From a virus: a DNA stretch of 26,648 bases. The position numbers and the translations under genes are program-made. Shown piece by piece: positions 4,871-22,162 of the stretch (its first letter is position 1; each line of letters begins with the position of its first letter). The DNA lies in IMG/VR virus record IMGVR_UViG_3300037480_000159, positions 1 to 26,648 of that record; one strand, 5' to 3'. The notes beneath the pieces were generated by a model. The model worked only from the letters and a program-made list of their open reading frames with translations. It was not told the DNA's origin and made no database searches.

Positions 4871-4901
4871 AGTTGAAAAAAATCATAAATGATATTATAA
4901 T
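4871..4901 (+). promoter_or_regulatory. Sigma-70-type promoter P1, fused to the ATP-grasp start codon
   Basis: TTGAAA (4873-4878), a 17-base spacer, and TATAAT (4896-4901). The ATP-grasp ATG at 4907 lies only 5 bases after the -10, so the predicted transcript starts at or beside the AUG. The start of the site (AGTTGAAAAAA) and the run before the -10 (ATGATAT) are shared with the site at 9871. Confidence 0.65.
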
Positions 4902-4906
4902 AGGGG

Positions 4907-5908
4907 ATGATAGATAAATCTGTAAATATCCTGATAACTGCCGCCTCTAGACGGGTGGCATTGGTAAAGGATTTTAAACGAGCTTTAAAGGGAACCGGAA
5001 AGGTAATTGCAGTAGACTGTGACCCCCTGGCCGCCGCGCTCTATTTTTCCGATAAACGCTATCTGGTGCCCTTAATAGCGGACCCATCTTATCTTAATGC
5101 AATCAAAGAGATTATAGAAAAAGAAAAAATCAATCTTATAATCCCCACTATTGACCTGGAGCTCTTACTCTGGGCAGAAAATAAAAGTTATTTTAAAAAA
5201 AAAGGGATTCATGTATCGATATCACCCCCGAAGACCATAAAAACATGCAATGATAAATGGGAAACATTTAGATTTTTTTCAAAACATGATTTGCTGTTTG
5301 CTTTTACTTTCCCTCCGTGCGGTACAATGAATATTCAACGGTTTCCCCTCATAATAAAACCGCGATCTGGCCGGGGCAGTGTAGATGTAGTGAAGGTAGA
5401 AAGTGAGAGAGAGTTAGCTTTTTATCTTGGGAGAACGAAACAACCAATTATCCAGGAATATCTACCAGGGAAAGAATTCACGGTGGACGCTTTCTTCTCC
5501 AGGACCGGGGAATTAATTTCTTATGTCCCTCGATACCGGTTGGTAATTCGAGCCGGAGTATCAGACCGCGGGGAAACATTCAAAAGTAAAGAAATCGAAA
5601 GGCTCATAATTGCAATCTCAAAAAAGATGAAATTTGAAGGAGCCGTCAACTTTCAGGGGAAAATTAACGAAGCCGAAGAGGTCAAATTTTTTGAAATCAA
5701 CCCCCGGTTCTCAGGCGGCATCCAGTTGTGTACCGCTGCGATAACTGGCAGTTTTGCTGATTTGCTCATTAGGGAAATGAGAGGAGAGGCGTTGACTCCA
5801 CGGGTAGGGGAATATATCGATAGGCTTACAATGACAAGCTTTGAAGATAGCCTATTCCTGGACTCACAGCAAAATTTAGTTGAAAAAAACCGGGAATCAT
5901 GCTATTAA
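4907..5908 (+). CDS. ATP-grasp ligase, carbamoyl-phosphate-synthase-like
   Basis: This 333-aa protein has an N-terminal Rossmann-like pre-ATP-grasp domain (NILITAASRRVALV, residues 7-20; VDCDP 36-40). An ATP-grasp fold follows: KPRSGRGS (151-158) is the glycine-rich loop, QEYLPGKEFTVD (183-194) the hinge, and FFEINPRFSGG (261-271) holds the Mg/ATP ligands E263 and N265. Members of this CarB-like group join a carboxylate to an amine or thiol at the cost of ATP and often sit in glycan or natural-product loci. ATG 4907 has no normally spaced ribosome site (only GGGG touching it), and a strong promoter ends 5 bases before, so a leaderless transcript is likely. Context suggests it could acylate the amine made by the aminotransferase upstream; this is inference. 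Confidence 0.82.
   Translation: MIDKSVNILITAASRRVALVKDFKRALKGTGKVIAVDCDPLAAALYFSDKRYLVPLIADPSYLNAIKEIIEKEKINLIIPTIDLELLLWAENKSYFKKKGIHVSISPPKTIKTCNDKWETFRFFSKHDLLFAFTFPPCGTMNIQRFPLIIKPRSGRGSVDVVKVESERELAFYLGRTKQPIIQEYLPGKEFTVDAFFSRTGELISYVPRYRLVIRAGVSDRGETFKSKEIERLIIAISKKMKFEGAVNFQGKINEAEEVKFFEINPRFSGGIQLCTAAITGSFADLLIREMRGEALTPRVGEYIDRLTMTSFEDSLFLDSQQNLVEKNRESCY
5878..5908 (+). promoter_or_regulatory. Promoter P5 of the ParB-like gene, inside the end of the ATP-grasp gene
   Basis: AGTTGAAA at 5878-5885 (-35 TTGAAA 5880-5885), a 17-base spacer, and TATTAA (5903-5908), then 6 bases to ATG 5915. The -10 contains the stop codon of the ATP-grasp gene. It begins with the same AGTTGAAAAAAA as the site at 4871. 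The -10 is weaker than in the sister sites. Confidence 0.5.
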
Positions 5909-5914
5909 TACAGT

Positions 5915-6574
5915 ATGAATAATAAAATTATAAATGTCACTTGTAAGGGCAGCCGGGCAATATCATTACAGGAGCTTGAAGCCTTTCAAGGGAATCTGGT
6001 TGAACTAAAACAAGAAAATTTAGAAAAGTTAAAGCGACTATTGATAAAATATGGGTTTCGGTTCCCGGTCTTTGTCTGGAATACAAAAATTATTGATGGA
6101 CATCAACGTCTTTTCGTTTTAAAGCATTTAATCGAAAACGAAGGTTATCAATTCCCACATCCCATTCCCGTCTGTGATATCGAAGCGGAAAGCGAAAAGG
6201 AAGCAAAGGAACTGGTTCTGATTGCCCGTTCGGAATATGGTGACACAATCGATCAAGGCCTTTATGAATTCATAGAAACAAACAATCTGCCATTCCCCGA
6301 TCTAAAAGATGACATCAAACTCCCCGGGTTAGACCTAGAATATTTTGAGCTTAATTATTATGGGCAAATGGACCTTAACGGGGTGAATATTGATGAGCTT
6401 TTGTATAACAAGAATAAAGACACCATGGATATGACCAAACTGAATGAAGCAATTATTAAAATCAGGGTTAATATCCAGGAATTTAAAAAAATTACGGATA
6501 TAATGAAACGCGCAGGCACGACACCGGAAGATGTCTTTTTTGAAGGGCTGAAAGGATATGAAAGGGATATATAG
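5915..6574 (+). CDS. ParB/Srx-like nuclease-fold protein (IbrB-like)
   Basis: This 219-aa protein has a ParB/sulfiredoxin-fold N-terminal half. Residues 34-70 run from ENLEKLKRLLIKYGFRFPV to the signature DGHQRLFVLK (61-70), the usual GHxR nucleotide-binding motif. The C-terminal half is helical and unassigned. The 17-base overlap with a PAPS-reductase-like gene is the arrangement of IbrB/IbrA pairs in enteric prophages, where the pair regulates surface-protein genes by an unclear mechanism. The ATG has no ribosome site and follows a promoter -10 by 6 bases, so leaderless translation is likely. It is not a partition protein: the HTH domain of true ParB is absent. Confidence 0.78.
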   Translation: MNNKIINVTCKGSRAISLQELEAFQGNLVELKQENLEKLKRLLIKYGFRFPVFVWNTKIIDGHQRLFVLKHLIENEGYQFPHPIPVCDIEAESEKEAKELVLIARSEYGDTIDQGLYEFIETNNLPFPDLKDDIKLPGLDLEYFELNYYGQMDLNGVNIDELLYNKNKDTMDMTKLNEAIIKIRVNIQEFKKITDIMKRAGTTPEDVFFEGLKGYERDI

Positions 6575-7472
6575 GAAAAATAGTGCCGCGGAGTCCAGGC
6601 GGAAATTGAAAATATTAAAAGAATTGCAATCCTGCCCCCTTATTGAAAAAATTAAAATAGCAAATAAAATAATTGATAAATCTCTTCAATTAGGAAAGCC
6701 GGCAATCCTATATTCTGGGGGCCGGGATAGTACCGTATTGCTTCATTTGCTATTGCAGCATGACAGGGACATCCTGGTTATCCACAATAACACAACCCTG
6801 GGGGACCCTGCCCTCCTGGAATATGTCAGGGGAGCCACAAGTGGGCTGAATTACATTGAAACAACTGCGGTTGAACCGGTCAGGATGTGGAAAGAAAAAG
6901 GATATTATCCCATACTTAGCAAACGCGGATTCACGGCATATAAAAAGCGTATTCCCGGGCTTCAGGTCAGCGCGGTCCAATGCTGTTATCAGCTGAAAGA
7001 AATGCACGCAAATCATGTTTTGAAAAGTCAAAAAATCCAGGTCATATTTTGGGGGAATAGAGCCGGGGAATCCAATCGCCGGAAGTTCTCCTTTATCGAT
7101 AATGGATTTTTATTCAAACCAAAAAAATATATATGGCATCAAAGTTATCCATTACAACACTTCATAAAACAAGATATCGAATCGTATTTAAAGAAAAATG
7201 TCCCGGGATTCCCGCTGCAAAAAACATTCGAAAGTGGATGCCTATGTTGCGCGACCGATATCACGTACCGGGATAATAACTTGACCCGGCTATTTCATAG
7301 GGACCGGGAGCTATGGGAATTTTACATGGCTAATGGGTTTGCAAAAGAAATAATGAGAATCAAAGGGTATAGCAATGTGACTGAAAAGGAGATATGCCGC
7401 GTTATAAAAAAAGCGCCGGAATTTTTGTTATGTATAAAGGGAAAGAAAAATGGGCAGGCGAAAAGGAAGTAA
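6558..7472 (+). CDS. PAPS-reductase/DndC-like PP-loop protein (IbrA-like)
   Basis: This 304-aa protein has the PP-loop ATP-pyrophosphatase motif SGGRDST at residues 53-59. The family block GNRAGESNRR lies at 166-175 and corresponds to the GxRxxES motif of PAPS reductases and DndC. Cysteines C142, C143, C228, C230 and C231 could bind an iron-sulfur cluster, as in DndC-type enzymes, but the exact spacing differs from what I know. It overlaps the ParB-like gene by 17 bases and probably works with it. Candidate roles are IbrA-like regulation or nucleic-acid thiolation. DndB, DndD and DndE are not in the window, so phosphorothioation is unsupported. It overlaps the TerS gene by 23 bases. Confidence 0.78.
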   Translation: MKGIYRKNSAAESRRKLKILKELQSCPLIEKIKIANKIIDKSLQLGKPAILYSGGRDSTVLLHLLLQHDRDILVIHNNTTLGDPALLEYVRGATSGLNYIETTAVEPVRMWKEKGYYPILSKRGFTAYKKRIPGLQVSAVQCCYQLKEMHANHVLKSQKIQVIFWGNRAGESNRRKFSFIDNGFLFKPKKYIWHQSYPLQHFIKQDIESYLKKNVPGFPLQKTFESGCLCCATDITYRDNNLTRLFHRDRELWEFYMANGFAKEIMRIKGYSNVTEKEICRVIKKAPEFLLCIKGKKNGQAKRK

Positions 7473-8004
7473 AAATAAAACCCCGGCGCAACGGGAAAAG
7501 GAGAAGGCAAACAAAAATCCTGTTGGCCGGCCGCCTAAATTGCCAGACATCGACTTAAAACAGGTTGAAAGGCTAGCTACATTTGGCAGGCTCGATTTGT
7601 CCGATATCGGGTACATCCTTAATATTTCCCATGAAACAGTTAATGCTTACAAAAAGAAGTATCCTGAATTTCTTGATGCAATAAAAAAAGGCCGTAGCAA
7701 AGCCAATTATAATGTTAAACAGAAAATGTTTGAACGGGCAATCGGTTATACACATAAAGAGAAAAAAATATTTTGCGTGAAAGTAGAGCCAACAGAAAAA
7801 ACCCCAGATGGGGTAGTTATAAAGGAAGTCGAGGTTGACAAATATTACCCGCCAGATCCAACCTCATTTATTTTCTGGATGTGTAACCAGGTGCCGGATG
7901 AATGGAAACGGGACCGTCAATCAAAAGAAGACACTATCGACCGGGCCGAAGAGTTGAAGGCGATAGCTGAAATATTGGATAAAAGGAATAGGAGAAATAA
8001 ATGA
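7450..8004 (+). CDS. terS: Terminase small subunit (TerS)
   Basis: This 184-aa protein has a very basic N-terminus with two AT-hook-like patches, GRRKGSKNK (2-10) and VGRPPK (25-30). A helix-turn-helix region follows (RLDLSDIGYILNISHETVNAYKKKYPEF, about 48-75). The rest resembles phage small terminases: KANYNVKQKMFERAIGYT, then YYPPDPTSFIFWMCNQVPDEW. TerS binds the packaging site in phage DNA and hands it to TerL. ATG 7450 overlaps the PP-loop gene, with GGGAAAG just upstream. The identification rests on the domain pattern and on TerL lying one gene downstream. Confidence 0.82.
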   Translation: MGRRKGSKNKTPAQREKEKANKNPVGRPPKLPDIDLKQVERLATFGRLDLSDIGYILNISHETVNAYKKKYPEFLDAIKKGRSKANYNVKQKMFERAIGYTHKEKKIFCVKVEPTEKTPDGVVIKEVEVDKYYPPDPTSFIFWMCNQVPDEWKRDRQSKEDTIDRAEELKAIAEILDKRNRRNK

Positions 8005-8282
8005 TAATAAAAAATTTTAAATGGGCATTACAGCGTCGAAAATATAGAATTAAAAAAATAAGAATAGCCTCAATTTTTGAAATTGCAATCGCTTTAAATT
8101 TAATACAGCTTAAACTTAATCCTGAAATTGAATATTATATTCAAGCAAAAATGAAATCCGGGAAAACGGCTGTATATAAATATTCAGATTGTGAATCCGC
8201 ATGGGGCACTGACTGGTGCTGGTATATATTCAGCTTTCATCATTGGTTAGAAGATGGTGAATTTTACCCCACCTATTGCTAA
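8001..8282 (+). CDS. Hypothetical protein inserted between TerS and TerL
   Basis: This 93-aa protein starts in an ATGA overlap with terS. The first 45 residues are very basic (WALQRRKYRIKKIRIA) and helical. The rest is aromatic-rich (WGTDWCWYIFSFHHWLEDG) with tyrosine clusters. It has no membrane segment, and I recognise no family. The base composition is more AT-rich than in either terminase gene, which suggests a later insertion (moron). Confidence 0.5.
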   Translation: MIIKNFKWALQRRKYRIKKIRIASIFEIAIALNLIQLKLNPEIEYYIQAKMKSGKTAVYKYSDCESAWGTDWCWYIFSFHHWLEDGEFYPTYC

Positions 8283-8288
8283 AAAGAA

Positions 8289-9650
8289 ATGACTGCAAGT
8301 ATAAGCCTTGAACGATATCGAGAACTTGAAAAACTGGTTGATGAATGCATACCGGAATTAAAGCCGCAAACGCAAGGCGAAAAAGAATTAACCCCTATTC
8401 AATGGGCATTATTAGAAGACAATGAGCATCAAATAATATGCAGCCATTCAGGTAGAAGGGCACGAAAAACCTTGATTTTTTCTAGGAAGCTTTTCCGTAA
8501 CGCATTAAAAACCCCCGGTCGGTATATTTGTGGAGCCCCTACTCATGAACAGGCAAAGGAAATATTTTGGGATCGGATGGATGCAATGACTAGGCCTTTC
8601 CAGTCACGAAAACCCCACGAAACAGACCGGAAAATATGGTTGACAAATGGCTCTGAGATAAAGATTGCAGGACTTGAATCCGGGGAACGGCTGAAGGGAA
8701 AGCCGGCAGCCGGGTTTCACATTTCAGAGGTGAGCGATGTTAAAGAGGAGATATGGTTAAGACATTTCGTGCCAATGTCCCTTGACACCAATGCCTTCTT
8801 TTATCTTGATGGTGTTCCCGGTGGCGGGATGGGTTGGTTTTATGATGTATGCTTGCAGGCATGTGGCGGGGCGTTACCGGAAAGGAATGAGTCCATAGGG
8901 GGGGCATATGGAATATCAAGAAAACATCCCCATATGGCTTACTATCATTGGAAAAGCTCCGATGTCTATGAACAATGGAAACTTGACCTCATCCAGGAGC
9001 AATATATTTTTAGTGAGGAGATGTTTCAACAGGAGTTTGAAGGGCGTTTTATTTCACTTAAGGGCCAGGCGTACAGAAATTACAGTATTAAGAATCAAAG
9101 CGAAACTGGATATAATCCAGCCTATGTTGTAGCGATTGGGTGGGATTTCAACCGTACCCCCATGGCCTGTACGTTTTCGCACATAATCGATGGGAAAATC
9201 TACACCTTTGATGAGGCTTTTATTGATGATTGTACAACGGCGCAAATGATTGATCATATTCTATTTGAAAAAAAATTCAGTCCGGAGATGTGCATCGCCT
9301 ACCCTGACAGCACCGGAAAAGCAGAAAAATCAAATGCTTCGAAATCGGACATTCAGCAGATACGGGCGGCAGGCATCCCAGTAAATGCGAAATCAGGTAA
9401 TCCCCGGGTAAAGGATCGGATTGCAAATGTCAATCGATTGCTGAAAGACAGAAAGGGAATAGTCCGAGCATATATTAATCCACGCTGCAAATATTTAATT
9501 AATGATTTCAATAAAGTGAAATGCGACCAAGACGGAAAAGAAGAACCAGAGCAAAAGAAAGGCCGGCTGACTCACATTTCAAGCGCGTGGGGCTACATGG
9601 CATATTATTTATTCCCCATGTACGCGGGGGGCATTAAGATGGTGTCATAG
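8289..9650 (+). CDS. terL: Terminase large subunit (TerL)
   Basis: This 453-aa packaging motor has an ATPase domain and an RNase-H-like nuclease. The Walker A position is SGRRARKT (54-61), where the usual GK is RK. AGFHISEVSD (141-150) holds the Walker B position, with SE in place of DE. FFYLDGVPGG (170-179) matches the coupling motif region. The nuclease has AIGWDFNRTP (D286) and CIAYPDST (D340). The third metal-ligand site, usually HxxDAxGY, reads HISSAWGY (429-436). The overall order and length fit TerL well. The altered key residues are odd and are noted as a finding. Confidence 0.88.
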   Translation: MTASISLERYRELEKLVDECIPELKPQTQGEKELTPIQWALLEDNEHQIICSHSGRRARKTLIFSRKLFRNALKTPGRYICGAPTHEQAKEIFWDRMDAMTRPFQSRKPHETDRKIWLTNGSEIKIAGLESGERLKGKPAAGFHISEVSDVKEEIWLRHFVPMSLDTNAFFYLDGVPGGGMGWFYDVCLQACGGALPERNESIGGAYGISRKHPHMAYYHWKSSDVYEQWKLDLIQEQYIFSEEMFQQEFEGRFISLKGQAYRNYSIKNQSETGYNPAYVVAIGWDFNRTPMACTFSHIIDGKIYTFDEAFIDDCTTAQMIDHILFEKKFSPEMCIAYPDSTGKAEKSNASKSDIQQIRAAGIPVNAKSGNPRVKDRIANVNRLLKDRKGIVRAYINPRCKYLINDFNKVKCDQDGKEEPEQKKGRLTHISSAWGYMAYYLFPMYAGGIKMVS

Positions 9651-9658
9651 GAGGAAAA

Positions 9659-9871
9659 ATGATTACTAAACAATACATCACAGAAGCAAAGCAAGCACTG
9701 ATTGATTACGGAGTTACAGAAAACAAATTTATTATAAGGGTCACTCCATATAACGCAACTGATATATTTCTGAAAATGATTAGGGAGGACTTCCCGGAAT
9801 GCACGGTTGAAATTGTACCATTGCCAGGCGAAAAGGAATATTATCATACGAACTGCCTTTTCCCTTTATGA
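9659..9871 (+). CDS. Hypothetical protein
   Basis: This 70-aa protein has a strong GGAGG site (9650-9654) before its ATG and lies 8 bases after terL. It begins with an amphipathic helix (YITEAKQALIDYG), followed by alternating beta strands (KFIIRVTPYN; CTVEIVPLPG) and a short tail with YYHTNC. The family is not recognised. It ends just before a promoter. Confidence 0.55.
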   Translation: MITKQYITEAKQALIDYGVTENKFIIRVTPYNATDIFLKMIREDFPECTVEIVPLPGEKEYYHTNCLFPL

Positions 9872-9901
9872 GTTGAAAAAATACGCGAATGGTATTATAA
9901 T
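9871..9901 (+). promoter_or_regulatory. Sigma-70-type promoter P2 before the portal operon
   Basis: TTGAAA (9873-9878), a 17-base spacer, and TATAAT (9896-9901), then 6 bases to an ATG at 9908. That ATG opens a 4-codon frame (MRLT) whose TGA overlaps the ATG of the 59-aa gene at 9919. Much of the site matches the one at 4871, including AGTTGAAAAAA, the AATG in the spacer and TATTATAAT. Confidence 0.65.
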
Positions 9902-9918
9902 ATTTAAATGAGGTTAAC

Positions 9919-10098
9919 ATGAAGAAATTAAAAGTTAATTATATTCCCTTCCGGTGGCTAAAAGAATTATATATCAACCGGCAGTTAAAAAAGGCTATTC
10001 GGACATGGAGGGAGAGCATGCTGAAAGTTGAACGGAGGAAAAAACAAGAGTGTGTCGAGTATTTAGACAAAATATCAAACCTGTTATTGGGGGTATAA
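9919..10098 (+). CDS. Small basic protein before the portal
   Basis: The frame begins at ATG 9919, with GAGG 5 bases upstream, and encodes 59 aa. It is rich in Arg and Lys and almost wholly helical (LKELYINRQLKKAIRTWRES, then VERRKKQECVEYLDK). No membrane segment is present. It may bind DNA or the packaging complex, but this is only suggested by charge and position. Its stop is one base before the portal ATG. Confidence 0.55.
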   Translation: MKKLKVNYIPFRWLKELYINRQLKKAIRTWRESMLKVERRKKQECVEYLDKISNLLLGV

Positions 10099-10099
10099 A

Positions 10100-11545
10100 A
10101 TGGAAGGAATGAGTCCAGACCTAAAAGCAAACACGACATCCAGGGATGAAACCGGGGGGATAATTCAGCAGTTAGAAGATGACTCCACCCGGCAGGATGC
10201 AATGGAAGTCAGATATGATATGCAACTTGAATCATGGCAGGATATATTGGTGAAGCGGATAAATGAGCGGTTATCCGATGATAGCAAAACCAAAATGGAG
10301 ACCTATATTCGTACCCGGTTTTGTCCATTCAAATCAATTAATGAGGAGGTGGCAGACCTTTACACCGATGACCCGACCAGGGAATTTGAAGGACCAAGCA
10401 TGGAATTTTTTCAAGAAACTTACGAAAGGATTGACATTGACACCCTCATGGAATTGGCGAATATTTTCTTGAATGCCGTAAACGAAGTCTTGCTATACGT
10501 TAAGAGAGTAGACGATAACCAAATTGACGTTGACTTTTTACCTCCTCACGTGGTCACTGTACTGTGTGATTCAGATAACCCCACAATCCCGGTTGCCGTT
10601 TATATTAAAAGGCGGTGGGATGCATCGGAAGATTATACGCCAAGCAACCGGTACTGGATGGTTTGGACGAATTCCCTACATTACATTTTAAATGGGAATG
10701 GTTCCCGATCTCCAATTGAAGGAAATGAGGGGATGTTGAACCCGTGGGGAGAGCTGCCGTTTGTTTTTCTTCACCGTAAGCGTCCGATTGACGGCTTTTG
10801 GAACAATTCAACCGGCAACAGCCTTTTTGAGTTTACAATTTCATACGGTATCTGTGACGTAATGAACAATTTTACAAAATTTTGGAGCGGGTTTAAACAG
10901 GTTGCTGCATTTGGGGACCGAGTCGTTATTCCATCAGGCATGCTGTTAAGTCCCGATGTTGCCATGACGGTGGAAGGTGACAGCGTAAGCGTGACAACCC
11001 TTGACTTCCAGATCAACCTTGACCAGTTATCAAAAGATATGCAAACTCAGATTGCTGCTATTTCTCAAGAATACGGTATTGACATGGGTAATTATAGTAT
11101 GTCGGAAAAAGAAAGTGGGCGGGCGATTTATATACGGAATACGAAATTACAAAAAATTCGAAAAAAACAGGAGAAGGTGCTGCGTGCCGGGGAAATACGA
11201 TTGTTTGAATTGACCAAGGGAATTAACGCTATTTTGAACGGGAAACAACCGGAGAGTGATACTACAGAAATGAACTTGAATTATGCTGAAATGAAAGCAT
11301 ACGTAGAGCCAAAAGAAGAGCTTGACATCCAGGCGCAGGAAATTGAATTAGACCTGGCAGACAAGGTCGAAGTATTCATGGAAAGGAACCCAGGATTTAA
11401 GGATTATAATGAAGCAAAGAAGCGGTTGATTGAAATCCATAAATCAAATAATGAATTTGAACAGATACCGGACGCATCTATCACCGAGGAACTTAATCGA
11501 GAAGGAGAAAAAGAGAATGAGGAGAATACTGAAGATACCCAATAG
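10100..11545 (+). CDS. Portal protein (SPP1 gp6-like)
   Basis: This 481-aa protein has the size and features of SPP1-type portals, the dodecameric ring at the capsid vertex through which DNA passes. The N-terminal helical part (20-110) includes TYIRTRFCPFKSINEEVADLY. A beta-rich wing follows with VDFLPPHVVTVL (144-155). The typical segment NPWGELPFVFLHRKRP lies at 214-229. Helical stem and crown regions follow (LDQLSKDMQTQIAAISQEYGI, about 309-328; acidic C-terminus EEENTEDTQ-like). It follows terL after two small genes, as expected. Its tail overlaps the next small gene. Confidence 0.82.
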   Translation: MEGMSPDLKANTTSRDETGGIIQQLEDDSTRQDAMEVRYDMQLESWQDILVKRINERLSDDSKTKMETYIRTRFCPFKSINEEVADLYTDDPTREFEGPSMEFFQETYERIDIDTLMELANIFLNAVNEVLLYVKRVDDNQIDVDFLPPHVVTVLCDSDNPTIPVAVYIKRRWDASEDYTPSNRYWMVWTNSLHYILNGNGSRSPIEGNEGMLNPWGELPFVFLHRKRPIDGFWNNSTGNSLFEFTISYGICDVMNNFTKFWSGFKQVAAFGDRVVIPSGMLLSPDVAMTVEGDSVSVTTLDFQINLDQLSKDMQTQIAAISQEYGIDMGNYSMSEKESGRAIYIRNTKLQKIRKKQEKVLRAGEIRLFELTKGINAILNGKQPESDTTEMNLNYAEMKAYVEPKEELDIQAQEIELDLADKVEVFMERNPGFKDYNEAKKRLIEIHKSNNEFEQIPDASITEELNREGEKENEENTEDTQ

Positions 11546-11693
11546 CATTTTGGGCCTATGTGATAAATGCCAGGCGATTTTTCCGAAAGGGTCAACTAAC
11601 CTGCCAAAAGAACAAATAGAAATGGGGATTTGTGATTGTTGCTTTTTAATTAATAAAAAAAAGTTATTGAAAAAATCACAAAATAATGTATAA
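11517..11693 (+). CDS. 58-aa zinc-ribbon protein
   Basis: A start at ATG 11517 with AGGAGA 8 bases upstream gives 58 aa. A longer in-frame version from 11430 would lie deep in the portal gene and is less likely. Two cysteine pairs, CDKC (14-17) and CDCC (about 39-42), bracket a basic linker (FPKGSTNLPKEQIEMGI), and the C-terminus is Lys-rich. This is a zinc-ribbon layout. It overlaps the end of the portal gene by 29 bases. Function unknown. Confidence 0.55.
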   Translation: MRRILKIPNSILGLCDKCQAIFPKGSTNLPKEQIEMGICDCCFLINKKKLLKKSQNNV

Positions 11694-11694
11694 T
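11664..11694 (+). promoter_or_regulatory. Promoter P3, inside the end of the zinc-ribbon gene
   Basis: TTGAAA (11667-11672), a 16-base spacer, and TATAAT (11689-11694), followed 7 bases later by ATG 11702. It resembles the sites at 4871 and 9871 (TTGAAAAAAT start), but the spacer is one base shorter. It would drive the structured leader at 11702-11833 and the membrane protein gene at 11834. Confidence 0.6.
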
Positions 11695-11701
11695 ATTAAG
11701 T

Positions 11702-11821
11702 ATGATGATAAATAGCCAGGCAAACAAGCGAAAGAATCTTTTTTTCATCCAAGATAAATGGTCTTTATCAGGGGGCAGCCGTGCCTGGCTATTTAATGTC
11801 CCCTGGTGGAGGCTTTTTTAA
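11702..11821 (+). CDS. Possible 39-aa leader peptide, leaderless
   Basis: ATG 11702 follows the P3 -10 by 7 bases and opens 39 codons, beginning MMINSQANKRKN, containing GGSRAWLF, and ending PWWRLF. The stop TAA directly touches the AAAGGAGGG site of the next gene. There is no ribosome site in front, so translation would have to be leaderless. The same bases carry a long inverted repeat, so the region may instead be a non-coding leader RNA. Confidence 0.3.
   Translation: MMINSQANKRKNLFFIQDKWSLSGGSRAWLFNVPWWRLF
11709..11795. repeat. 14-base perfect inverted repeat
   Basis: The arms are 11709-11722 and 11782-11795, with sequence TAAATAGCCAGGCA and its exact reverse complement. They lie 14 bases downstream of the promoter -10 and between two genes. 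A match of this length is unlikely to arise by chance at such a short distance. Confidence 0.85.
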
Positions 11822-11833
11822 AGGAGGGAAATC

Positions 11834-12178
11834 ATGACCGATAAAGAAATTAAGGAATATGCAAAAACATTAACAATGGCAGATATGCGTGAAAAGTTCA
11901 ATGATGAATTTGGCTACATTAATGACTTTGGTTATAAAGTGTTAGATGCATTCAATGAGTTAGAGAAAAAAAAAGCAAAAGAAAAGGGGTTTTTCCCTTC
12001 TCTTTGGTATTTATTCAAGGGTGGTTGCAGGGTTTACGTTTATGACGATTGGCTTTTAGCATGGTCAACATTTCATGAATATAACATTTTCAGAATAGCT
12101 GGCATTACGTTATCGATAGTAACAATCCTTGTGTTAGTTCTGATTTTTGTTTTCGATCTGCCGTTAAAGCTGCAATAA
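11834..12178 (+). CDS. C-terminal transmembrane protein, hypothetical
   Basis: This 114-aa protein is preceded by a strong AAAGGAGGG site 6 bases before the ATG. The N-terminal two thirds are soluble and charged (DKEIKEYAKTLTMADMREKF). A single hydrophobic segment at about 88-110 (ITLSIVTILVLVLIFVFDL) ends the protein. A tail-anchored topology is therefore likely, with the N-terminus in the cytoplasm. No family is recognised. It is the first ordinary gene after promoter P3 and its structured leader. Confidence 0.6.
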   Translation: MTDKEIKEYAKTLTMADMREKFNDEFGYINDFGYKVLDAFNELEKKKAKEKGFFPSLWYLFKGGCRVYVYDDWLLAWSTFHEYNIFRIAGITLSIVTILVLVLIFVFDLPLKLQ

Positions 12179-12193
12179 AATAGTGGGACAATC

Positions 12194-13375: not shown

Positions 13376-13376
13376 A

Positions 13377-13766: not shown

Positions 13767-13791
13767 GAAAGAAGATGAGGAGGATTGAATA

Positions 13792-14991: not shown

Positions 14992-14992
14992 G

Positions 14993-16381: not shown

Positions 16382-16569
16382 TGGACGAAGTGTATACTTG
16401 TATATGTGGGAATCAAAAATGGGTTATAAAAGTTGATTTTATCGAATGCACTAAATGTGAAAGGGAATACGGGCATCAACCTGATGGCTTTTTATTAGAT
16501 CGGAATTATCATCCTGGGCTTTTTAATGAGGCCCGTGAACAATATTTACAAAAAGGAGGTAAGAAATGA
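16381..16569 (+). CDS. 62-aa zinc-ribbon protein
   Basis: ATG 16381 lies 6 bases after GGAGG (16370-16374). A longer frame from 16288 would read through the 39-aa gene in another frame and is rejected. The ribbon is CxCGNQ (7-12), then CTKC (23-26). It is the intact counterpart of the degenerate protein at 14797. The C-terminal half (GHQPDGFLLDRNYHPGLF) is unassigned. It overlaps the next gene by 4 bases. Confidence 0.55.
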   Translation: MDEVYTCICGNQKWVIKVDFIECTKCEREYGHQPDGFLLDRNYHPGLFNEAREQYLQKGGKK

Positions 16570-16955
16570 TTGAGGAACAAATAACTCATATTTGGGGGTT
16601 GCATCTATTTCACAAAAGATCAAATCCACACAGAAAACGTTGGAAAGTAGGTGAAAACGGGGAATGGGAATTCAAAAACAGGAAAGAGGCTTTACTGTCA
16701 ATTGATAAAGATATGGTTAAAACACATGGTCTTCTTTCTAATAAAAAAATGGTTGCAATCAAGGTCCACAAGTCATTGCCTAAATATACCGAATCACTGG
16801 AACATCTTCAAAGTCCTAAAGCTTATCCCGTTTATGAAGATACGGCATTGCCATTCCCAGGGTATCTTGTAGCACAGGATGAAAATAATATTCCTATTTT
16901 GTGTATAACCACCTGTTTTAAAAAATGGAAAGAAGATGCATATATAGAGATGTAA
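16566..16955 (+). CDS. Hypothetical protein
   Basis: This 129-aa protein follows AAAGGAGG. It is a mixed alpha/beta protein, with a basic start (FHKRSNPHRKRWKVGENGEW), a possible nucleic-acid-binding lysine cluster, and a beta-rich end (FPGYLVAQDENNIPILCITTCF). No motif or membrane segment is recognised. Confidence 0.5.
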   Translation: MIEEQITHIWGLHLFHKRSNPHRKRWKVGENGEWEFKNRKEALLSIDKDMVKTHGLLSNKKMVAIKVHKSLPKYTESLEHLQSPKAYPVYEDTALPFPGYLVAQDENNIPILCITTCFKKWKEDAYIEM

Positions 16956-16956
16956 A

Positions 16957-17160
16957 ATGCCCATGAAGCATAAAGATATACGACCAGGGGTTAAGGCTTT
17001 ATATGATTACAGCCTTGTTTATTCCCCAAAGATTGTTGCTATTACATCTTACCCAACTCTTGTGTTTTCTGGATATGTTTGCTGGCTTAAGGGGATTGAT
17101 CACTATGTACCTATCGAAAGTTTAGAGAGTACTAAAAATGCCAAAGATGAAATTTGTTAG
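16957..17160 (+). CDS. Small hypothetical protein, paralogue of the 3274 gene
   Basis: This 67-aa protein has no clear ribosome site; a second ATG lies at 16963. The line KDIRPGVKALYDY...PKIVAI..YP matches the 3274 protein (DEIKPGEKLIYNY...PEIVTV..KP). A short beta-rich fold is likely. Its last 23 bases overlap the minor head gene. Function unknown. Confidence 0.5.
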   Translation: MPMKHKDIRPGVKALYDYSLVYSPKIVAITSYPTLVFSGYVCWLKGIDHYVPIESLESTKNAKDEIC

Positions 17161-17644
17161 AATAACAGTAGGTGACAAGCGGGTTTGCCAGGATTGCATC
17201 CGGTTTGAAGACCTCGCCCCGGCAACCCTAGAATGGTGGCAGGCGTCCGGGTACATGCCACGGCAAGCTCCGACGGAATGCGGAACGAAATGTCGCTGCG
17301 GATTAGCACCTTCTACATTTGGAGAATTGGAGCAGAAGGTAAATGAGGTGATTGAGAAAACTGTCCAGGAGGGGTTTGGTAAAACCGTGATTGACCTGAC
17401 CACCGGGCGGCGGCTATTACTCAGAGATTTCGACCAATACGAGGGCCTGCGAACCATGCAATATGAGAAGATTGCCGAAATGGAAAACCTGATTTTGCAA
17501 TGGAAAATTGCCAATAATGGGGTTAAGCTCCCCGGGGAATTTTTTCAATTGCAGGATATTGGTGATATGACATTTTGGTTGGAAGGGAAGCCGGTAAAAC
17601 CTATTTTGCCAATAAAAAAGAAAAAAAAGGAGGATAAGAAATGA
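17138..17644 (+). CDS. Minor head protein fragment, Mu-F/SPP1-gp7-like C-terminal domain
   Basis: This 168-aa protein carries the cysteine motif of phage head morphogenesis proteins: VGDKRVCQDC (11-20), then WWQASGYMP, then TECGTKCRCGL (46-56). This order (CxxC, W..G.P, CG..CRC) is typical of the C-terminal domain of Mu gpF/SPP1 gp7-like minor capsid proteins. The usual N-terminal helical domain of about 200 aa is missing, so the gene is either a stand-alone domain or one half of a split protein. Its place between portal and scaffold fits, though many small genes lie between. The C-terminus is lysine-rich. Confidence 0.65.
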   Translation: MPKMKFVRITVGDKRVCQDCIRFEDLAPATLEWWQASGYMPRQAPTECGTKCRCGLAPSTFGELEQKVNEVIEKTVQEGFGKTVIDLTTGRRLLLRDFDQYEGLRTMQYEKIAEMENLILQWKIANNGVKLPGEFFQLQDIGDMTFWLEGKPVKPILPIKKKKKEDKK

Positions 17645-17901
17645 ATCAAGAACAAAACGCAAGTGAAGCCCTTTTGGCTTTTTGTGGGTGGTTAACTTTG
17701 CATGATGAAGAAATGGTTTTGTCGGCTCATAGTGACTGCGCACCAATCGTTGAAAAGATAAAGGCGTTTTGTGAATTCAACAAATTGTCGGAGCCGCGAC
17801 CGGGATGGGAAAAGAATTTCAAGCATCCACCAGGTGTCAAGCCATTTAACACTGAATTCGTAGGTGACGCAGTGTCGGATGCCAGTGAAGAGGAAAGGTG
17901 A
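17641..17901 (+). CDS. Hypothetical conserved-type phage protein
   Basis: This 86-aa protein follows AAAGGAGG with an ATGA overlap. The pattern AFCGWLTLHDEEMVLSAHSDCAPIVEKIKAFCEFN, then PRPGWEKNF resembles small phage proteins I have seen with WLT...SAxHDxAP..E....FC.xN. Function is unknown in that group. It is acidic and soluble. Confidence 0.5.
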   Translation: MNQEQNASEALLAFCGWLTLHDEEMVLSAHSDCAPIVEKIKAFCEFNKLSEPRPGWEKNFKHPPGVKPFNTEFVGDAVSDASEEER

Positions 17902-17991
17902 ATGGCCAATAAGATGAAATATAAAGCAATCATAAGCGGTTTCCAGTCAAAAAGAAAAGGGAGAAATGAGGATGGAATATCATTATTTTGA
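17902..17991 (+). CDS. Possible 29-aa microprotein
   Basis: ATG 17902 directly follows the previous TGA and has GAGGAAAGG upstream. It encodes MANKMKYKAIISGFQSKRKG, then a short end. The start resembles the N-terminus of a longer phage protein, so it may be a truncated remnant. It overlaps the next gene by 26 bases in another frame. Confidence 0.3.
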   Translation: MANKMKYKAIISGFQSKRKGRNEDGISLF

Positions 17992-18157
17992 TTTAAGAGA
18001 TAAAAGTAGAAATGGTCACATTGTTTATCAATTACGTATACCGAAAGACAGAATCGAAAGCGAAATACAAAAACAACTGATAGAAGAAAAGCAATATTGT
18101 GTTAAAGTATCGATACATGGGATTGAAACAAAAAATCTTTATTGGGATAGATATTAA
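17966..18157 (+). CDS. Hypothetical protein
   Basis: This 63-aa protein starts at ATG 17966 or, with better spacing from AGGGAG, at ATG 17972. It has alternating charged strands (EYHYFDLRDKSRNGHIVYQL) and a helix (DRIESEIQKQLIEEKQ), and ends in KNLYWDRY. No family is recognised. Confidence 0.5.
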   Translation: MRMEYHYFDLRDKSRNGHIVYQLRIPKDRIESEIQKQLIEEKQYCVKVSIHGIETKNLYWDRY

Positions 18158-18177
18158 AAATATTGAAAGGAGAAAGG

Positions 18178-19011
18178 ATGATACTTAAAAACGTGAAAGC
18201 AGTAATTGTAAACGGCATGCGTTTAGACGTGGAGTATACGGACGATGTGAATAATCTGCAAGGTGATAATTTGGGGAATATAAACCATTCTAATGCGATC
18301 ATTTACATCAAGAAATCAATGGTTCCCTCGATGCAAAGTAGGACGTTATGGCATGAGGTCGTACATTCAATTGGATTTTTATACAAAGTCATCGAATCGG
18401 AAGACAATCCAGAGATTGAATTTAATGAAAGGGAAACAAGCAGGCTGGCTTCCGCTTTGAATTCTTTAGAGATTGAACGTGAAGAGCCAGAAGAAAAAGA
18501 GAAAATTTCAGGTTGTAAATGGTCTTTTTTATTCGATGAACGTCCAGGTGATGGAGTAATTTGTATAGTGAAAGGAAAGGAATGGGCAAATTTTGAGTGT
18601 GCGAAATGGGATGATAAAGAAGATGCTTTCATATTGGATAATGGAGATAAATATTTCAATCAAAAAACATTGTGGATATGTTTCAGTCAAGGATTATGGG
18701 AAAACTTGGTTGTGGGCAGAGATAACGAAACAATATCAGCTAAAGGGAAATCCGATTGGTTAAATATTGGAGATGAACATCCAGATACAAATAGAACCTG
18801 CATTATAATTACAGAGGCAATCGAAGATTATATAATCGCTACCTGGACCGGAAGGCATTTTGAATGGTTGCAAGACGGGAAAGTAAAACAGTCGCCAGAT
18901 AATGTTTTACTTACTTGCTGGAAATATGTCCAAGAAAACGAAACGCAAGAAGAAATCGATGCCCAGCTTGAAAAATTAGACAAGGTGCGGAATGCTTCAA
19001 TATCAATTTAG
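18178..19011 (+). CDS. Zinc-metalloprotease-like protein fused to two DUF551-like repeats
   Basis: The start at ATG 18178, 5 bases after AAAGGAG, gives 277 aa; TTG 18163 is less likely. The N-terminal 100 residues contain SRTLWHEVVHSIGF with HEVVH at 59-63, the HExxH zinc-protease motif, then NERETSRLASAL (83-94), where a glutamate could be the third ligand. This layout occurs in small phage proteins related to ImmA/IrrE. The rest holds two similar repeats (about 115-170 and 194-250), each W-x5-DE-x-P, then CI, then A-x-W, resembling DUF551. I have not seen this combination before. Substrate unknown. The 3' end overlaps the next gene by 20 bases. Confidence 0.65.
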   Translation: MILKNVKAVIVNGMRLDVEYTDDVNNLQGDNLGNINHSNAIIYIKKSMVPSMQSRTLWHEVVHSIGFLYKVIESEDNPEIEFNERETSRLASALNSLEIEREEPEEKEKISGCKWSFLFDERPGDGVICIVKGKEWANFECAKWDDKEDAFILDNGDKYFNQKTLWICFSQGLWENLVVGRDNETISAKGKSDWLNIGDEHPDTNRTCIIITEAIEDYIIATWTGRHFEWLQDGKVKQSPDNVLLTCWKYVQENETQEEIDAQLEKLDKVRNASISI

Positions 19012-19477
19012 CGAAAAAGGAATAAAGGAAGCACGGCGGAATTTCCGGAAACTTTATACCGCTGTTCAACAGGGTCGGGTAAAAGCCATGGAAGCTGGTG
19101 GTAAAAAAGCGGTTGAAATAATCCGCAAAAGGACCACCTCCGGAAAGGATGTTAACCACCGGAAATTTAAAAAATATTCAAAGGCATATGCGAAATGGAA
19201 GGGGACTTCTTTCGTGGACCTGGAATTAAGGGGAGTTATGTTGAATGCCGTATCCCTTAATGCATGGGCCAAGAAATGCCGGATATTCATCAAGGGTACC
19301 GGGGAATTGATAAAAAAGGCAATCGTTCATAATAACGGTGGCAGGTCTGGGCGCGGTACCGGGTTTGCGATGCCAAAGCGGGAATTTATGGGTGTCGAAA
19401 AAGAAAGGGACGAAGTCATCAAGCCAATACGTGAATGGTGGTATAAGTTTGCCAAAAAATTAGGGTTCGGGAGGTGA
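18992..19477 (+). CDS. Tail-completion/virion morphogenesis protein (Mu gpG-like)
   Basis: This 161-aa basic protein has the pattern of phage virion morphogenesis proteins that finish tails or join head and tail. A helical start (EARRNFRKLYTAVQQGR) precedes KAVEIIRKRTTSGKDVNHRKF (about 45-65). The end reads VHNNGGRSGRGTGFAMPKREF, where MPxREFxG is the family hallmark, followed by a final helix (REWWYKFAKKL). It is the first clear structural gene after the minor head fragment. Confidence 0.68.
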   Translation: MLQYQFSEKGIKEARRNFRKLYTAVQQGRVKAMEAGGKKAVEIIRKRTTSGKDVNHRKFKKYSKAYAKWKGTSFVDLELRGVMLNAVSLNAWAKKCRIFIKGTGELIKKAIVHNNGGRSGRGTGFAMPKREFMGVEKERDEVIKPIREWWYKFAKKLGFGR

Positions 19478-19480
19478 ATG

Positions 19481-19687
19481 ATGAGCTTAATTATGCTGTC
19501 ACATAACGGGGAAATAATCAGTAGATTTGAATACGGTGGGGAATTGCCAGTTAAAGGAGATCATATTTTACATTTAGACGGAGGGTCGAGTGCTGAGTAT
19601 AAAATAAAAATCAGGAAATTTGTGCCTTGCTTTAATGATATTGATGACCATAGCTATTGGGTGTTTATATTAGAAGATTTAAAATAA
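19481..19687 (+). CDS. Small hypothetical protein
   Basis: ATG 19481, 6 bases after GGGAGG, gives 68 aa; ATG 19478 is also in frame. Almost all of it is predicted beta strand (IMLSHNGEIISRFEYGGELP, then YKIKIRKFV, then YWVFILEDLK), as in a small barrel. Function unknown. Confidence 0.5.
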   Translation: MSLIMLSHNGEIISRFEYGGELPVKGDHILHLDGGSSAEYKIKIRKFVPCFNDIDDHSYWVFILEDLK

Positions 19688-20245
19688 ATGAGAATGATAA
19701 AAGTCCAACACATAAAGCGTAAGCGCCTGGTTTACAGCCTCGACGAATTAGCAATCGGGACCGTAGTTGATTGGAGAAAGCCGGTGGCGCTAATCGGTGA
19801 CGGGGAATCGAAATGTAGATTTATATTCAACCGGGAGAAAGTAACAGTATTTGCTTTAAACCGGGCGGCCAGGGTCTACCCAGCAGACATGATGGTTAGC
19901 GGAGAGGGGCACGGGGCATCCCTGGAATCCATTGTCCCGGTATACATTCCGTTTGTAACAATACAAAAACAGGATGTAGAGAAATATAAATTGATAAGCG
20001 GTGCCAATGGAGTGGCATTCCTTTCTTTCTTGGTGCAATGGGTTGAGAAAGGTCCGATCATATTGCAAGGGTTTAATTTCTCAAATTCTGACCAACCAAA
20101 TTATGATTGGAGAGCACAGATTAACGGAATCCGCGCATGTTGGACGACAGCAAAGGGGCGGAGCATTGAGATATTCACAACCAATTACAATGCTGAGCTT
20201 GGGTTTCTGACCGTGAAAAAGCCGAATAAGGATTTATATCTATAA
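19688..20245 (+). CDS. GT42/MAF-like Rossmann protein, copy 1
   Basis: This 185-aa protein has a strand followed by the loop VALIGDGESK (33-42), then VFALNRAARVYPADMMV (54-70), and late ANGVAFLSFLVQW (106-118) with IILQGFNFS (124-132). The order nucleotide-loop, N-R, then helix and LxGFxx is like GT42 sialyltransferases and MAF/DUF115 (MptE-type) proteins, but no catalytic residue is certain. The next gene is a paralogue with the same landmarks. It could transfer a sugar, possibly linked to the aminotransferase and ATP-grasp genes near the left end. Weak ribosome site. Confidence 0.5.
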   Translation: MRMIKVQHIKRKRLVYSLDELAIGTVVDWRKPVALIGDGESKCRFIFNREKVTVFALNRAARVYPADMMVSGEGHGASLESIVPVYIPFVTIQKQDVEKYKLISGANGVAFLSFLVQWVEKGPIILQGFNFSNSDQPNYDWRAQINGIRACWTTAKGRSIEIFTTNYNAELGFLTVKKPNKDLYL

Positions 20246-20258
20246 GAGGTTTAATGTT

Positions 20259-20801
20259 ATGGTACAAAAATGGAACCTGCCAGCATTCCCGATAAATTAC
20301 AACCAGGATTTTGCGGTTATTGGAGATGGGGAAAGTGCTGGCTGCCATGAATACAATCCAAAAGTAATTAAAATATTTGCCATAAACCGATCCCTTCGCT
20401 TTATTGCAAATATGCAAAATACGGTTGATGTCTTGACAATGTATCATCACGAAGAGTATATGGTTGACTACCTTAACCACAACTATTCCATGCAAACCCT
20501 CAATCTCATCATAATCCAGCTTTTTGATATCAGAAAGCACCACCTCCCATCCGGGGACACCGCAAATATGCTCATTCACTACCTGGTGCAAAAAATGAAA
20601 TCATGGGGGGTCCGGGATAAGAAGATTTATTTGACCGGGTTTGACTATTCATATAAAAAAGACTGGAAGCCTCAAATTAAATCGCTCAAATATTGCCAGA
20701 TAATGGCAGAGTACAACAATATCGACATTATTTGCACATCAGAAAATAAGAGGTTACCATTTTTGAAGCACGAAGAGCCATTGACTAAGTTCTTGGTATA
20801 A
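20259..20801 (+). CDS. GT42/MAF-like Rossmann protein, copy 2
   Basis: This 180-aa protein has AGAGG upstream of its ATG. Shared landmarks with the preceding gene are FAVIGDGESA (18-27), IFAINRSLRF (39-48), TANMLIHYLVQKMKSWG (101-117) and IYLTGFDYSYKKDWKPQI (123-140). The last part, NNIDIICTS, matches SIEIFTT of copy 1. The two genes are an old tandem duplication with most surface residues changed. The stop is only 5 bases from the end of a minus-strand gene. The function is as for copy 1, equally uncertain. Confidence 0.5.
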   Translation: MVQKWNLPAFPINYNQDFAVIGDGESAGCHEYNPKVIKIFAINRSLRFIANMQNTVDVLTMYHHEEYMVDYLNHNYSMQTLNLIIIQLFDIRKHHLPSGDTANMLIHYLVQKMKSWGVRDKKIYLTGFDYSYKKDWKPQIKSLKYCQIMAEYNNIDIICTSENKRLPFLKHEEPLTKFLV

Positions 20802-20806
20802 TTTCT

Positions 20807-21103
20807 TCAAAATTCGTCCTCTAATTTATCAATACGCCTTTCAATTTCCCGTGCCCATTCAATCGTTAAAAGTTCATGGACCAGCTTGTCATCAGGAATT
20901 TTTAATATTTTAATTTCTATTCCATTTTTCCCGCAACTTTTCCAATCAATAAATCCGGTTCTATATAATTGAACAACACGTCTTTGAAACCATGTTTTCC
21001 CTATACCTAACTTTTCCAATAAATCTTTTTTTTTAATTTTTATGGTGTCATCATTTTTTTCTAAACTGCATAAAAGCTTCAGCAAATCAAGTCCATCAAT
21101 CAT
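20807..21103 (-). CDS. Winged-helix DNA-binding-like protein
   Basis: This 98-aa protein lies on the opposite strand. Residues 18-60 (NDDTIKIKKKDLLEKLGIGKTWFQRRVVQLYRTGFIDW) have a helix-turn-helix followed by KNGIEIKILKIP, a plausible wing, so it looks like a winged-helix regulator. The C-terminus is a charged helix (HELLTIEWAREIERRIDKLEDEF) that could dimerise. It is the last gene of the minus-strand cassette and overlaps the previous one by 8 bases. It is a candidate regulator of the divergent operator. Confidence 0.55.
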   Translation of the reverse strand: MIDGLDLLKLLCSLEKNDDTIKIKKKDLLEKLGIGKTWFQRRVVQLYRTGFIDWKSCGKNGIEIKILKIPDDKLVHELLTIEWAREIERRIDKLEDEF

Positions 21104-21293
21104 TTTTCCTCCCTAAAATCTCATCATCTGAAAGCCCAGTTAATTTTTTCAAGGCCATTAACAAATCGGTTCCCGGCTTCCCTTTATCATTAAAAATCAT
21201 CGACAGCCAAACACGCCCCCATTTTGGGCCAAGCCTTTTCATTATCCAACGATACGTGACCGCCTCTTTTTCTCTCCATTCATTCAGTGTCAT
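21096..21293 (-). CDS. Small XRE-like HTH candidate
   Basis: The start at ATG (21291-21293 on the minus strand) follows GGAGG with the right spacing and gives 65 aa; a longer frame from 21305 places the ribosome site inside itself. The end (KGKPGTDLLMALKKLTGLSDDEILGRKN) resembles the last helices of XRE-type HTH domains (LLxALxxxxGLSxDEL). The N-terminal helices are atypical, so this is tentative. Confidence 0.45.
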   Translation of the reverse strand: MTLNEWREKEAVTYRWIMKRLGPKWGRVWLSMIFNDKGKPGTDLLMALKKLTGLSDDEILGRKND

Positions 21294-21306
21294 TTCAACC
21301 TCCATT

Positions 21307-22020
21307 TTAATTCAATGCGAATACTTTCCTTTTTATCAAAAAGAATGCATTGATAAAACTTCCATGATCTAATTCCAAATTTACCCCATGGGTTTTTTTA
21401 TTTCCGAACATCCCGTATTTTTCATCGTCTAAGCTATCGCCATTTAAAATTCTAAGAAACTTCACTAAGTTTGCATATCCATTGGGGTGTCCATCTCCGT
21501 CGTTATATTTGCTCATGCCATACACATGATATTGGGTTCCGCAATAATCATAGAAAATATCATGTAAACATTGGGGCATTTTGATTAATTTAATTGCTTC
21601 AAATATCTCTTCTGCATACCATTCTTGACAACAAATCTCTTTACTAATTTCAGTTATTTTACCGATTAAGATTTTTTTAGAATATTCAATGACACCAGGC
21701 CCCGTAGCTAAAGATTCTTTCCATTGTTTGGCGGCATTTAAAATTATATCGTTAAATTCATTAATGTACGCAGCAATAGATTCCTTTTCCCTTTCGATTC
21801 GCTTGGCATTCGTCCAATGGCTGCATAAAGTAGCCTGGAATGCGTTTAACTCAAGTTCGGTACATTTTTTTTTAACGATGCTATCCCTATACTCACAGTA
21901 TCCGAGACATAGAACACTACAATGGATATTCCCTTCGCACTTATCAAACCCCAAATGGCATGTCGGTCTCATTTGATGCCTGTAATTACCGTCACTGCAA
22001 CTCCGATCTAATTCATCCAT
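21307..22020 (-). CDS. Cysteine-rich hypothetical protein, first gene of the minus-strand cassette
   Basis: This 237-aa protein has its own promoter and a GGAGG site. The first 75 residues hold many cysteines and histidines (CSDGNYRHQMRPTCHLGF, KCEGNIHCSVLCLGYCEY, KKKC, LCSHW), which suggests zinc or iron-sulfur binding. The middle is helical. The last part (GDGHPNGYANLVKFLRILNG, then a beta end) is unassigned. No known family is recognised. It may be a sensor or anti-repressor for the two small DNA-binding-like proteins behind it; that is inference from order only. Confidence 0.5.
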   Translation of the reverse strand: MDELDRSCSDGNYRHQMRPTCHLGFDKCEGNIHCSVLCLGYCEYRDSIVKKKCTELELNAFQATLCSHWTNAKRIEREKESIAAYINEFNDIILNAAKQWKESLATGPGVIEYSKKILIGKITEISKEICCQEWYAEEIFEAIKLIKMPQCLHDIFYDYCGTQYHVYGMSKYNDGDGHPNGYANLVKFLRILNGDSLDDEKYGMFGNKKTHGVNLELDHGSFINAFFLIKRKVFALN

Positions 22021-22035
22021 ATTTCACCTCCACTA

Positions 22036-22047
22036 ATAGTATACTAT
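22036..22047. promoter_or_regulatory. 12-base palindrome on the minus-strand -10, operator candidate
   Basis: ATAGTATACTAT is a perfect palindrome that includes the TATACT -10 of the minus-strand promoter. A dimeric repressor bound here would block that promoter. Confidence 0.45.
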
Positions 22048-22066
22048 AGGTTTACCTTTTTGTCAA
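22038..22066 (-). promoter_or_regulatory. Minus-strand sigma-70 promoter of the cassette
   Basis: Read on the minus strand: TTGACA (22061-22066), a 17-base spacer, then TATACT (22038-22043). The -35 is consensus and the -10 near consensus. The gene starts at 22020, with GGAGG in between, so the leader is only about 10 bases. Confidence 0.75.
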
Positions 22067-22101
22067 CAAAATTAACGCTAAAAATAAAATAGTTGACAAA
22101 T
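22059..22101. repeat. Inverted repeat covering both divergent -35 boxes
   Basis: TTTGTCAAC (22059-22067) and GTTGACAAA (22093-22101) form a perfect 9-base inverted repeat. Each arm contains the TTGACA of one promoter, so the symmetry may be a consequence of the promoters or a bound operator. Confidence 0.6.
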
Positions 22102-22122
22102 TCCAAAAATTATATTATTATT
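22094..22122 (+). promoter_or_regulatory. Sigma-70 promoter P4 of the capsid operon
   Basis: TTGACA (22094-22099), a 17-base spacer, and TATTAT (22117-22122), followed 5 bases later by ATG 22128. It begins AGTTGA like the sites at 4871, 5878 and 9871. It would drive scaffold, coat and tail genes. Confidence 0.7.
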
Positions 22123-22126
22123 TCAT

Positions 22127-22162
22127 ATGAACCAGATTGAGTTCATAGGAACACGGTTCATA
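22127..22162 (+). promoter_or_regulatory. 5' hairpin next to the scaffold ribosome site
   Basis: TATGAACC (22127-22134) and GGTTCATA (22155-22162) form an 8-base stem. Inside it GTTC-ATAG-GAAC (22141-22152) forms a second small hairpin. The stem sits at the predicted transcript 5' end and its last base abuts AAGGAG (22162-22167). It could stabilise the message or control ribosome access. Confidence 0.55.

Follow-up and report, generated by a model that had tools for sequence, protein, structure and literature searches.

Sigma-70-type promoters set beside AUGs in an uncultivated phage, and a conserved crossed-helix RNA behind one of them

Several promoter-like sites of one phage carry an ATG at a nearly fixed distance past the -10 box. 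Is this ATG a working part of the promoter, which would then deliver leaderless messages, or does it accompany something else? The question was raised by a sequence-only reading of the window analysed here, which is an entire virus record (26,648 bases) of an uncultivated phage and may be only part of its genome. Five plus-strand sites were proposed to form a phage-specific promoter class coupled to leaderless translation. All five are present as described, with ATGs (at 4907, 5915, 9908, 11702 and 22127, plus strand) 5, 6, 6, 7 and 5 bases past the -10. The opening AGTTGA is shared by four of them, as had been stated, and site 4 has TATTGA. The sites, as predicted, and the genes around them are as follows.

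4871..4909, plus strand: site 1, AG-TTGAAA-N17-TATAAT-AGGGG-ATG, 11/12 consensus, matrix score 36
4907..5908, plus strand: ATP-grasp (PylC-like) gene, a leaderless candidate
5878..5917, plus strand: site 2, a weak promoter-like string in the closing codons of the ATP-grasp gene, ahead of the ParB-like gene (5915)
8289: terminase gene terL, without an SD
9869..9921, plus strand: site 3, TGA-GTTGAAA-N17-TATAAT-ATTTAA-ATGAGGTTAACATG, score 39, promoter giving the gene at 9919 a short SD leader
10100: portal gene, SPP1-like
11664..11704, plus strand: site 4, TTATTGAAA-N16-TATAAT-ATTAAGT-ATG, score 29, promoter of a structured RNA
22038..22066, minus strand: divergent promoter, TTGACA-N17-TATACT, 11/12, giving a short SD leader to the gene at 22020
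22091..22129, plus strand: site 5, AG-TTGACA-N17-TATTAT-TTCAT-ATG, 11/12, score 34, promoter of the scaffold/capsid operon
22173: scaffold gene
22867: major head gene

Strength and conservation of the promoter family

The layout TTGA(A/C)A-N16/17-TAT(A/T)A(A/T)-N5-7-ATG was found five times on the plus strand of the record and never on the minus strand, against 0.013 expected from 300 dinucleotide shuffles; the anticipated enrichment of motif plus ATG is thus borne out. Six plus-strand sites reach at least 11/12 of the consensus (0.56 expected in shuffles), and four of these six have an ATG at 5-7 bases (0.04 expected). The remaining two lie within coding sequence, at 22883 in the major head gene and at 24310. 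With a looser threshold of 9/12, the count of promoter-like strings is at chance (61 versus 60 in shuffles). The chance of an ATG at 5-7 bases past a TATWAT box is 7%, and for four of four sites it is about 2e-5, uncorrected for the post-hoc choice of distance.

The four strong plus-strand sites (4873, 9873, 11667 and 22093) are one sigma-70-type promoter sequence family. A position matrix was built from these sites and two homologues in a related phage, and sites were ranked by leave-one-out, which grouped each strong site with the other family members. Scores were 29-39 for the strong sites, 21 for the divergent minus-strand promoter at 22066 and 15.8 for site 2 (5880); shuffle maxima had a mean of 13.3 and a highest value of 18.3. 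Bases common to the set in both phages are AG before the -35, an A-tract after the -35 and AATGRTAT before the -10. TTGACA and TATAAT-like boxes 16-18 bases apart, above chance, are carried by all four sites at 11/12. Since boxes this close to the sigma-70 consensus suffice for host RNA polymerase, the host enzyme would be the reader of the four sites. On the same ground the claim of a phage-specific class lacks support: in this possibly partial genome the boxes fit the host consensus.

Transcripts would start about 7 bases past the -10. At sites 1 and 5 the gap from TATAAT or TATTAT to the ATG is only 5 bases, which would place the usual start inside the AUG. At sites 1 and 3 there is an alternative -10, TATTAT, three bases upstream (TGRTATTAT, an extended -10), and its use would shift the start. 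The idea of a promoter family that starts on or beside an AUG survives as a prediction for the four strong sites, two of which are kept in the relative, and is unproven for site 2.

Relatives were sought by scanning viral contigs with six proteins (TerL, major head, ParB-like, ATP-grasp, portal and the 14312 protein) and two promoter/RNA DNA patterns. These scans returned a single relative, L001, an 8 kb sequence whose TerL is 85% and portal 71-72% identical, and a distant ParB homologue, L002, which is SD-led. L001 carries counterparts of sites 3 and 4 only, and sites 1, 2 and 5 fall outside the comparison. In genome contigs all that the TerL scan found were terminases of Ignavibacteria, which at about 26% identity are too remote for comparing promoters. 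Among isolate phages the best TerL matches were at about 28%, and the portal and head searches were without a match.

What lies behind sites 1, 2, 3 and 5

Site 1 is intergenic (upstream stop at 4858), and its predicted transcript start falls at the AUG of the ATP-grasp gene or within one or two bases of it. The usual start would lie within this AUG; it would not if the promoter used the extended -10 TGATATTAT, which overlaps the first -10 and lies three bases upstream. The Pfam domain PylC-like_N spans ATP-grasp residues 8-103, and because the match runs from profile position 1 at residue 8, the start at 4907 is right. There is no usable SD at 4907 (+0.6 kcal/mol). From the first T of the -10 to the start codon there are 11 bases at 4907 and 12 at 5915, as in the leaderless layout of about 12. 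The ATP-grasp gene is the sole good leaderless candidate of the family. Two of the AUGs had been taken for gene starts without a good ribosome site; this agrees with the sequence at 4907 and 5915, and the lack of an SD there is nothing special. Most genes of this phage are SD-led, and an SD is absent from several, terL included. A missing SD is therefore no hallmark of the family's promoters.

The score of site 2 lies inside the range of the shuffle maxima. Its -10, TATTAA, is without the final, most conserved T and ends in the ATP-grasp stop codon, and the start at 5915 has a weak SD (-3.3). Site 2 is probably a chance string rather than a promoter.

Site 3 has its homologue at L001:2250-2299, where GAGTTGAAAAAA and AATGGTATTATAA are identical and six intervening bases are changed. 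Past the -10, ATTTAAATGAGGTTAACATG in this phage stands against TGAAGTGAGGTAAAACATG in L001: the ATG is replaced by GTG, and the SD TGAGG with the ATG behind it is retained in both. Site 3 is an ordinary SD arrangement with a very short predicted leader. Small genes between terL and the promoter and between the promoter and the portal gene are present here and both missing in L001. At sites 3 and 4, in both phages, the stop of the preceding gene overlaps or abuts the promoter. By this comparison the promoter is the conserved unit, kept at both sites amid diverged flanking sequence and altered genes, and the ATG is retained at site 4 but not at site 3.

The ATG of site 5 is part of a predicted hairpin.

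22126..22162, plus strand: 5'-terminal hairpin UAUGAACC...GGUUCAUA, including the site-5 ATG, immediately followed by the SD that serves the gene at 22173

The ATG lies in the 5' arm, and AAGGAG followed by the scaffold gene comes directly behind the hairpin, which has -10 kcal/mol and is equally stable in 5 of 200 shuffles. At the divergent promoter the ATG is 17 bases past the -10, with GTGGAGG in between. At sites 3 and 5 the promoter-proximal AUG was found not to be the gene start, an SD-led gene lying further down; 4907 alone is a gene start, by its Pfam match.

The folded RNA behind site 4 and the readings weighed

The homologue of site 4 (L001:3750-3788) keeps TTGAAAAA, GTATAATATTAA and TATGA, and the ATG is kept despite a one-base indel. 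Behind it the following elements are predicted.

11702..11821, plus strand: possible 39-codon leader frame from the site-4 ATG
11709..11722, plus strand: 5' arm of helix A, TAAATAGCCAGGCA
11760..11777, plus strand: 5' arm of helix B, GGTCTTTATCAGGGGGCA
11782..11795, plus strand: 3' arm of helix A, TGCCTGGCTATTTA, within the loop of helix B
11797..11819, plus strand: 3' arm of helix B, TGTCCCCTGGTGGAGGCT, then a U-tract, terminator-like

Counted from 11700, helix A is a 14-bp pairing of 10-23 to 83-96, and the 18 bp of helix B, several of them G-U, join 61-78 to 98-115. The L001 counterparts, counted from 3785, lie at matching positions: 12-23 with 84-95 for A, and 60-71 with 104-115 for B, to which seven further pairs are added for a total of 19. 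An equally good crossed pair was found in 0 of 500 shuffles for either phage's sequence. No other crossed pair in the full record scores as well as this one; the same holds for all of L001, except that the complementary strand ties there. Across 23 pairs comparable between the two phages, five double and three single changes keep the pairing and none breaks it, and helix B is 100% paired versus 46-62% when slid by 1-3 columns. A shuffle control of covariation equalled the observed value in 68 of 500 cases, power being low with two sequences. Five to six U's directly follow helix B in both phages. Rfam returned no family above its gathering threshold for this phage, the best being leu-phe_leader at 25.9 versus 70 bits, and none for L001; leu-phe_leader (RF01743) was rejected, its score being far under threshold and aided by AT-rich flanks. 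A putative RNA of about 115 nt with two long crossed helices and compensatory changes is conserved in the two phages and new to Rfam. Separately, a repeat at 11754-11781 that could pair with 22221-22248 was at chance level and was dismissed.

Can the two helices stand together? With only 1 nt linking them in this phage, they cannot both be present at full length. A complete H-type pseudoknot was dismissed on geometry, since its 14 bp would have to be spanned by a linker of 1 nt; a partial pseudoknot is possible. When folding of the growing chain was predicted, helix A was present at lengths 92-110 and helix B from 116 in both phages; in the full-length fold of this phage helix A returns. The elements of an attenuator are predicted here, namely a terminator hairpin with a U-tract in a 5' leader and an earlier, competing helix A. 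The best readings of the RNA are an attenuator, in which an early helix competes with a terminator, and a stand-alone phage small RNA; in the model, termination would occur at helix B, and A and B would compete.

Taken as a whole, the family is real and ordinary in type, with support for leaderless expression at a single gene. The explanation favoured, with moderate confidence, combines host-type restart promoters, ultra-short leaders, a sequel specific to each site and competition between A and B. The four strong sites would be host sigma-70-type promoters that restart transcription at operon heads, placed at the extreme edge of the transcribed unit, where the 5' leader is near nil or just fits a ribosome site or 5' structure. 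The start at site 1 would lead to the ATP-grasp AUG itself, probably leaderless, that at site 3 to an SD and start codon, that at site 5 to the 5' hairpin and then an SD, and that at site 4 to the folded RNA ending in a terminator. There, helix A would form first in the growing transcript, through pairing of the RNA's first ~20 nt to the loop of B, and the completed helix B with its U-tract would compete with it. With B formed, transcription would end and an RNA of about 115 nt would be released; with A holding, polymerase would enter the next genes. The near-constant AUG would have a function at site 1 and possibly at site 4, and would otherwise arise as a by-product of the SD (AUGAGG) and hairpin (UAUGAACC) sequences.

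The site-4 RNA may instead be a stand-alone, trans-acting small RNA composed of promoter, folded body and intrinsic terminator, with readthrough incidental, a reading given a substantial minority chance. The promoter and terminator-like end bound a unit of about 115 nt in both phages, an unpaired stretch, CCAANATAAATRGTC, is conserved in the A-B loop, and the first genes downstream are dissimilar between the phages, which favours a small RNA. The SD of the following gene lies within a few bases of the U-tract in both, which favours a leader.

A phage-specific class built for leaderless mRNAs, in which the AUG would be a working part of the motif, is unlikely. The position of the ATG at 5-7 bases in all four strong plus-strand sites, its survival at site 4 in L001 and the ATP-grasp gene without an SD speak for such a class, against which stand the GTG with retained SD at site 3, the ATG buried in a hairpin stem before AAGGAG and an SD gene at site 5, the related minus-strand promoter at 22066 that feeds an SD gene, and the plain sigma-70 boxes. 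With site 2 probably no promoter, the proposed coupling to leaderless translation is not sustained for the class.

A leaderless leader peptide at site 4 is plausible. Ribosomes from the leaderless AUG would cross both helices, A and B, and readthrough would thereby be coupled to translation. The frame is open for 39 codons here and 45 in L001, across B in both, and its stop in L001 overlaps the ATG of the next gene. This form of attenuator is nevertheless improbable: openness alone is not significant (chance P 0.10 and 0.063), and the two peptides show little similarity by eye, save for residues within the helix A arms. It is likewise doubtful that site 4 represents a new phage attenuator class, in which a leaderless AUG at +1 is followed by a helix arm pairing with the terminator loop; if true, the choice between the short RNA and readthrough into the operon would be made jointly by folding of the RNA and by ribosomes loading at +1. 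Chance, an ATG happening nearby in AT-rich sequence, agrees with the shuffle-like 9/12 count and with site 2 and is very improbable for the family, whose high scorers are strand-specific, at operon heads and conserved in L001 at both testable sites (3 and 4), which contradicts chance for those two.

Known promoters, leaderless genes and leader RNAs

In TA-led leaderless bacterial genes, the start codon follows TANNNT at a distance of about 12 bases (Zheng et al. 2011, PMC3160421; for Deinococcus-Thermus, PMC12340547). Site 1, and weakly site 2, is alike in having TATAAT and about 6 bases to the ATG with no SD. The sites differ in their strong -35, only one or two open a full gene, and most genes of this phage are SD-led. 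The phage lambda cI mRNA is cited as leaderless in PMC3017554 and PMC3160421. The ATP-grasp gene is predicted to be likewise a phage gene begun at the transcript 5' end from a sigma-70 promoter, whereas the phage here has no demonstrated repressor gene or regulatory circuit. SigA promoters with an extended -10, such as TGNTATAAT in C. difficile (PMC7438776), are alike in TTGAAA/TTGACA, the 16-17 spacer, TATAAT and, at sites 1 and 3, the upstream TG; the extra common bases set the sites of this phage and its relative apart as a recognisable group. An uncultivated phage may set transcription starts right at gene starts. An AUG beside a -10 box does not by itself imply leaderless translation: in the relative the AUG drifts and the ribosome site stays.

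The folded RNA behind site 4 is a more interesting find than the promoter family. Conserved and absent from Rfam, it is a candidate termination switch or phage small RNA. The trp and his leaders are transcription attenuators, and SAM-II is a pseudoknot riboswitch (compare PMC9373788). The site-4 RNA differs from such systems in being without a ligand, an amino acid codon run or an Rfam family at threshold. As a 5' leader it would resemble them in its competing helices, the later one with a U-tract, and in a possible leaderless peptide, and its predicted pairing is 1:3 against 2:4, a crossed arrangement, in place of 2:3 against 3:4.

Stop codons at the site 3 and site 4 promoters

In the window, the promoters of sites 3 and 4 each have an ATG 5-7 bases past the -10. 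Both there and in L001 (an 8-kb sequence, the only relative found), these two promoters share bases with the stop codon that closes the preceding frame, or lie directly beside it. At site 3 a TGA stop sits at the -35 end; at site 4 a TAA stop lies inside the -10. This contact is common to both phages, yet the upstream reading frames are not alike.

Stop codon and promoter contacts
Window 9869-9901, site 3
Window 11689-11694, site 4
L001 2253-2280
L001 3773-3778

Structured RNA behind site 4

Site 4 is followed by a conserved RNA with two long crossed helices and a terminator-like end (window 11700-11835; L001 3785-3918), within which the unpaired stretch CCAANATAAATRGTC is also conserved. The crossed-helix RNA had no match in Rfam.

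Accessory genes of the two phages

Both phages carry genes of sugar or cell-surface type, and the L001 gene resembles a sialic-acid synthase.

Sugar and cell-surface type genes
Window 3474-4691, DegT-family aminotransferase
Window 4907-5908, PylC-like ATP-grasp
L001 4860-5849, putative sialic-acid synthase (NeuB-like), between structural genes

The 17138 protein has a homologue at L001 6792-7808 with an extra C-terminal domain fused on, which by eye looks like an ADP-ribosyltransferase; the window copy ends at 17644 without it. Within the plus-strand structural region of the window, a short minus-strand operon of three genes (20807-22020) has at its head a good promoter, located at 22066, that diverges from the one at site 5. 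Its last gene appears to encode a small winged-helix protein.
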